Shown here: positions 49,494-49,766 of the stretch, in pieces
How positions within the stretch are numbered: position 1 is the first letter of the stretch
Layout: the number at the start of each line of letters is the position of its first letter
Assembly: GCA_902561015.1 (NCBI GenBank)
Contig: CACENB010000005.1
Span: forward strand, 1-57,545
Reading direction: 5' to 3'
DNA length: 57,545 bases
Source of the DNA: an uncultured Pelagibacteraceae bacterium
GTDB lineage: Bacteria > Pseudomonadota > Alphaproteobacteria > Pelagibacterales > Pelagibacteraceae
Made by a program: the position numbers and the translations under genes
Notes under the pieces: generated by a model
Database searches by the model: none
The model's input: only the letters and a program-made list of their open reading frames with translations
What the model was told of the DNA's origin: nothing

Positions 49494-49655
49494 CTAGTTT
49501 GACTCTCTTGGAGTCTCAACTAAATCTTGCATTCCACTTGAACCCCAATCACAATGATCGTCTCTCATGTAAGTACCTCTTCTATTATGCTGAGCTAAGT
49601 CCTCATGACTAATGATTTGAGCCTCATTTTCGTAGTTTTTTAATTTTTCTTCCAT
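49494..49655 (-). CDS. Small 53-aa ORF between the operator array and aceA, same strand as aceA
   Basis: Frame MEEKLKNYENEAQIISHEDLAQHNRRGTYMRDDHCDWGSSGMQDLVETPRESN from CAT(rc) 49653-49655 to TAG(rc) 49494-49496; below ORF-track cutoff. Confidence 0.6.
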   Translation of the reverse strand: MEEKLKNYENEAQIISHEDLAQHNRRGTYMRDDHCDWGSSGMQDLVETPRESN

Positions 49656-49667
49656 GTAAATCTTATA

Positions 49668-49758
49668 ATTTACAAAATTTACAAAATCTACAAAAAAGCA
49701 TAAAAAGGTTGTAAATTAAGGAAAATTATTGTAAATATAAATTTACAAAATTTACAAA
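49668..49758. promoter_or_regulatory. Array of seven TTTACAAA-type sites in the aceA/regulator divergent promoter
   Basis: TTTACAAA at 49669, 49678, (TCTACAAA) 49687, 49742, 49751; inverted TTGTAAAT at 49709 and 49729; direct copies spaced 9 bp. Confidence 0.8.
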
Positions 49759-49766
49759 TAGAAAAC

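Follow-up and report, generated by a model that had tools for sequence, protein, structure and literature searches.

The array of seven boxes between the isocitrate lyase gene aceA and a divergently transcribed ScfR-family regulator gene, found in the Pelagibacter-type (SAR11) window studied here (the whole stretch of DNA that was analysed, 57,545 nt), is in our judgement very likely the operator of that regulator, controlling isocitrate lyase and the regulator's own gene from one spot. Very probably the regulator binds at these strictly conserved repeats and thereby switches both its own gene and the glyoxylate shunt; judged by its sequence, the array is a real, well-conserved autoregulatory operator of the ScfR type, of a family and with a repeat unit that are already known. 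For the SAR11 layout, the apparently single-locus regulon and the accompanying microprotein, no description was found in the literature searched.

SAR11 bacteria are among the most abundant bacteria in the ocean; their transcription factors are few, and control is believed to run mostly through riboswitches and post-translational mechanisms. Field and culture data show their glyoxylate shunt responding to iron and light, and the literature searched yielded no assigned regulator for it. The locus described here gives a named regulator (SAR11_1242), an exact candidate operator, a regulon that apparently comprises a single locus, and a conserved companion microprotein. Since regulator and operator can be named at one locus, a single protein and a single DNA fragment are enough to test control in vitro, and with it, through the aceA-regulator array, an almost unstudied control point of SAR11.

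The box array in the window

Table 1. Features of the aceA-regulator locus (coordinates of the window).
Feature	Position	Strand	Remarks
aceA, isocitrate lyase, 424 aa	48170..49444	-	NF011645, 722.7 bits (cut-off 562)
Microprotein gene, 53 aa, conserved	49494..49655	-	core YxRDDHCDWGSSGM; between array and aceA
Putative -10 element TATAAG of the microprotein-aceA transcript	49662..49667	-	conserved in alignment
Box D1 TTTACAAA	49669..49676	+	aceA-proximal pair; TTTAC core the same throughout 79 distinct genus arrays
Box D2 TTTACAAA	49678..49685	+	9 bp from D1
Third box, degenerate, TCTACAAA	49687..49694	+	only some bases conserved
Box I4 TTGTAAAT, single, inverted	49709..49716	-	in all 136 arrays, GTAAA is exactly 31 nt ahead of D6
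Box I5 TTGTAAAT, single, inverted	49729..49736	-	in all 136 arrays, GTAAA is exactly 11 nt ahead of D6
Box D6 TTTACAAA	49742..49749	+	regulator-proximal pair
Box D7 TTTACAAA	49751..49758	+	9 bp from D6; regulator ATG 8 nt on
ScfR-family regulator, 477 aa	49767..51200	+	HTH_3, IrrE-like domain, ScfRs C-terminal domain

The original prediction placed seven like copies of the repeat between aceA and the regulator. All seven are present at their coordinates, and six of them are near-exact TTTACAAA/TTGTAAA boxes within 90 bp, while the third copy is degenerate; the region is indeed divergent, but aceA does not abut it, as the 53-aa microprotein gene, which that reading of the locus did not include, intervenes. 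Boxes I5 and D6 form a palindrome, TTGTAAAT-ATAA-ATTTACAA, with an 8-bp inverted repeat. Exact TTTACAA/TTGTAAA words occur six times in the 90 bp, compared to two in the best other cluster of the whole window and to a maximum of three per cluster in simulated windows (300 order-1 and 300 order-3 Markov sequences, n=600). Similar repeat clusters, which might have been equally frequent elsewhere, are not; none comparable was found.

The microprotein core is nearly invariant among 63 distinct genus sequences, with synonymous sites varying widely; pN/pS is ~0.19 in the core and 0.63 over the full length. Related forms are present in other SAR11 genera, and the microprotein matches no family in Pfam, NCBIfam, PHROGs or the PDB. 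TATAA[AG] is found at a matching distance in 71 of the 80 named loci (see below), and because the putative -10 element sits 6 nt before the microprotein ATG, the transcript is possibly leaderless. In the window, aceA has a sodium/solute symporter and an ABC-2 type transporter as neighbours; in HTCC1062 it adjoins the iron uptake genes sfuABC (L117, 3481-9682).

Conservation and uniqueness across SAR11 genomes

The repeats are conserved upstream of orthologous aceA/regulator pairs, and the two genes are divergent in all 110 fetched loci (L007-L116). When 79 distinct genus arrays are aligned, the TTTAC/GTAAA cores are almost fixed and the linkers variable. The same pattern of kept box spacing and drifting linkers is seen among 136 distinct SAR11 arrays, picked for exact TTTAC-N4-TTTAC pairs, in which the pair-to-pair distance is 73 nt (115 arrays) or 74 nt (21 arrays). 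As 73 bp is about seven helical turns, both pairs would lie on one face of the DNA. Every one of 80 named loci, which overlap with the genus genomes otherwise counted, has aceA and a 9-bp pair adjoining the microprotein start, and 79 of them have the second pair, as 79 have the regulator.

Of 101 genus genomes, 60 contain the exact pair TTTACAAANTTTACAAA, with one to two copies each, while the reversed control pattern gave one match in total. Among the 52 newly seen genomes that have the pair, 51 carry it at the regulator, the exception being G321, where the regulator was not found. A loose 9-bp TTTACA pair has 2-6 matches per genome, a background number that genomes lacking the regulator reach as well, and of 13 matches examined 12 fall in coding DNA; we thus claim no regulon outside the aceA-regulator locus. 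Upstream of malate synthase, no 9-bp pair was found in ten genomes. The exact 8-1-8 pair is essentially restricted to the aceA-regulator locus in each genome, and the regulator appears to have no target other than this locus.

Co-loss of array and regulator

Twelve genus genomes without aceA likewise lack the regulator and the microprotein, and four apparent mismatches between aceA and regulator (G169, G171, G189, G277) lie at contig ends. That aceA and the regulator always occur together is contradicted by three genomes, G002, G050 and G109 (loci L255, L256 and L257), which retain aceA with other neighbours; regulator, microprotein and array are absent there, these being incomplete genomes in which genome-wide absence is not proven. 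Since these genomes keep aceA and lose both of the others, the array goes with the regulator and not with aceA, and the microprotein too is gone with the regulator even where aceA is retained. In G050, a -10-like TATAGT is retained and the boxes look decayed. The three genomes are natural cases of regulator loss. Conservation, rigid spacing, near-uniqueness, co-loss with the regulator and the match to published PrpR/RamB sites (see below) together argue well for the operator reading that was originally proposed.

The divergent regulator

The assignment of the divergent gene to the ScfR/RamB family has been borne out: PF09856 scores far over its cut-off (198.8 bits vs 24), HTH_3 scores 44.4 vs 23, and the protein is related to MtPrpR (6cz6, E 3.2e-63). 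Against the RamB equivalog NF038139 (class 1) it reaches 361 bits, under the curated cut-off of 700. No second PF09856 protein was found in any of the 14 genomes that have one, and the regulator's recognition-helix motif SYLNL is common to the SAR11 proteins and other alphaproteobacterial relatives. A tandem duplicated HTH domain, giving a regulator of ~565 aa, is seen in L046, L057, L062, L066, L075, L082, L087, L088, L089 and several further genomes, and the tree requires at least three gains or losses of this duplication. An AlphaFold2 model of the regulator alone was set aside (pLDDT 34.5).

Cysteines C355, C439, C442 and C447 (C-X2-C-X4-C plus a cysteine of the GAF-like domain) are invariant in 110 sequences; the regulator thereby has the cysteine set of the ScfR/IsaR family for a predicted [4Fe-4S] cluster. 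Residues H311, R330 and K339 of the putative CoA pocket are invariant, and H319 of MtPrpR is kept along with most phosphate-contact/CoA-contact residues. Two positions differ: F155 of MtPrpR, a pocket-bottom residue in contact with the thiol, gives way to an invariant Gly at the acyl end (G146), and the adenine-stacking F240 is replaced by L232, with Leu or Ile across the sequences. Due to these two replacements, the ligand identity of MtPrpR is not transferable to the SAR11 regulator. Acyl-CoA control of the glyoxylate shunt, another part of the original prediction, is suggested by family membership only.

Proposed mechanism and expression data

By analogy with its family, the regulator would be a tetramer with a [4Fe-4S] cluster and a CoA-ester pocket, binding tandem 8-1-8 half-site pairs with a 9-bp period. 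One such pair would cover the microprotein-aceA promoter region and the other would lie just upstream of the regulator's start codon, with the two single inverted boxes in between; most likely, the tetramer bridges or fills both pairs. If transcription starts at the microprotein ATG, as the predicted -10 suggests, the aceA-side pair would cover roughly -15 to -31, a stretch that lacks a good -35, in an activator-like position, whereas the regulator-side pair, 8-25 nt before the regulator's own ATG, looks autorepressor-like. As ligand one would expect a CoA thioester, with Fe-S status possibly having a modulating effect.

By locus order, SAR11_1242 of HTCC1062, a member of the same genus, is the ScfR-family regulator; it is reported to be slightly induced under iron stress. 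In HTCC1062 arrays under iron limitation, aceA changed 1.58-fold (P 0.091) and SAR11_1242 1.60-fold (P 0.054), neither being significant at 0.05 (PMC2864753). SAR11_1242 is up in light, and the published light response names this gene and does not name aceA (PMC3090418). In the field, SAR11 isocitrate lyase expression is higher in iron-limited water (PMC6618146). The small iron response, the light induction and the field data fit iron-linked control but do not prove it. The [4Fe-4S] cluster of MtPrpR is required for CoA retention and tetramer integrity. We speculate, while regarding it as rather unlikely, that the Fe-S cluster of the SAR11 regulator acts as an iron sensor, so that the array is occupied differently when iron is scarce and isocitrate lyase goes up, with the co-encoded microprotein taking part in the switch.

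Alternative readings of the repeats

The repeats might mainly be core promoter elements, with TTTACA-like -35 and TAAAT-like -10 sequences of two AT-rich promoters kept for RNA polymerase. TTTACA is indeed one base off the -35 consensus, and the TATAA near the microprotein start is conserved; yet seven boxes with invariant spacing exceed the need of two promoters, and the boxes are gone or decayed without the regulator although aceA still needs transcription, as in G050 with its remaining -10-like element. We therefore consider this reading very unlikely. That the palindromic stretch acts in RNA instead, as a leader hairpin or riboswitch, is extremely improbable: although I5 and D6 provide an inverted repeat, the stems would be almost pure A-U, the direct pairs at a 9-bp period would be left unexplained, and an Rfam search at aceA (L007, L043, L112) returned no RNA family. 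In HTCC1062 and G017, malate synthase has a glycine riboswitch, in line with the original view that control of aceA is distinct from it.

It is likewise highly unlikely that the boxes are the operator of another regulator of the Fur/Irr type. Such a reading could draw on the relaxed Fur-box-like motifs reported upstream of SAR11_1242 (PMC3090418) and on the iron uptake neighbours of aceA in HTCC1062, but the authors of that study found no classical Fur box, the array vanishes along with the ScfR gene and is absent at other loci where a Fur box would be expected, and the unit matches PrpR/RamB sites, with related boxes at ScfR-aceA pairs of other Alphaproteobacteria. The array could instead account for the Fur-box-like motif that has been left unexplained. 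Against the operator reading itself, its layout is not that of Paracoccus, and in HTCC1062 the published light response does not name aceA and the iron response of both genes is small.

Comparison with known PrpR and RamB systems

The SAR11 repeat unit matches the footprint of MtPrpR, two 8-bp near-palindromes with one nucleotide between them, TTTGCAAA-N-TTTGCgAA (PMC3420887). It also agrees with the Paracoccus RamB boxes TGACAAACCTTACA and TGACAATACTGACT, each of which, on our reading of the published oligos (PMC10370305), contains two half-sites at a 9-bp period. This match to PrpR/RamB, which the original prediction did not include, is a closer precedent than a general resemblance to TTTGCAAA. 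Among 27 other alphaproteobacterial relatives, 21 of which have an isocitrate lyase match in the fetched stretch, 9-bp GTAAA/TTTAC pairs are found in 11 loci (shuffles gave no more than 1), with period 9 standing out clearly as the maximum.

RamB of Paracoccus denitrificans, a class 2 ScfR (PMC10370305), is likewise divergent from and adjoining glyoxylate genes, binds boxes of two TKACA half-sites 9 bp apart, one box touching the ramB start, and has an Fe-S cluster, predicted for SAR11 from the cysteines, and a CoA-ester pocket, which the SAR11 regulator may share. It differs in that its two boxes are separated by an 18-bp spacer, whereas the SAR11 pairs lie 73-74 bp apart with two single inverted boxes; in that it serves a malate synthase-icl operon, while SAR11 aceA is separate from malate synthase; and in that a microprotein gene intervenes in SAR11. 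Because of the difference in spacing we do not file the SAR11 regulator as a class 2 RamB, and would say no more than that it works in the manner of one.

PrpR of Mycobacterium tuberculosis (PMC3420887, PMC6765138) shares the 8-1-8 tandem near-palindrome operator in a divergent region, and its four Fe-S cysteines, His319 and several phosphate-contact residues are kept in SAR11. In contrast, it governs the methylcitrate genes prpDC as well as icl1, its site has TTTGCAAA where SAR11 has TTTACAAA, and its Phe155 and Phe240 are Gly and Leu/Ile in SAR11. Finally, the class 1 RamB of Corynebacterium glutamicum (PMC4448153) regulates aceA, the predicted SAR11 target, together with aceB, from a site that contains TTTGCAAA, but it does so through a 13-bp motif and has many targets.
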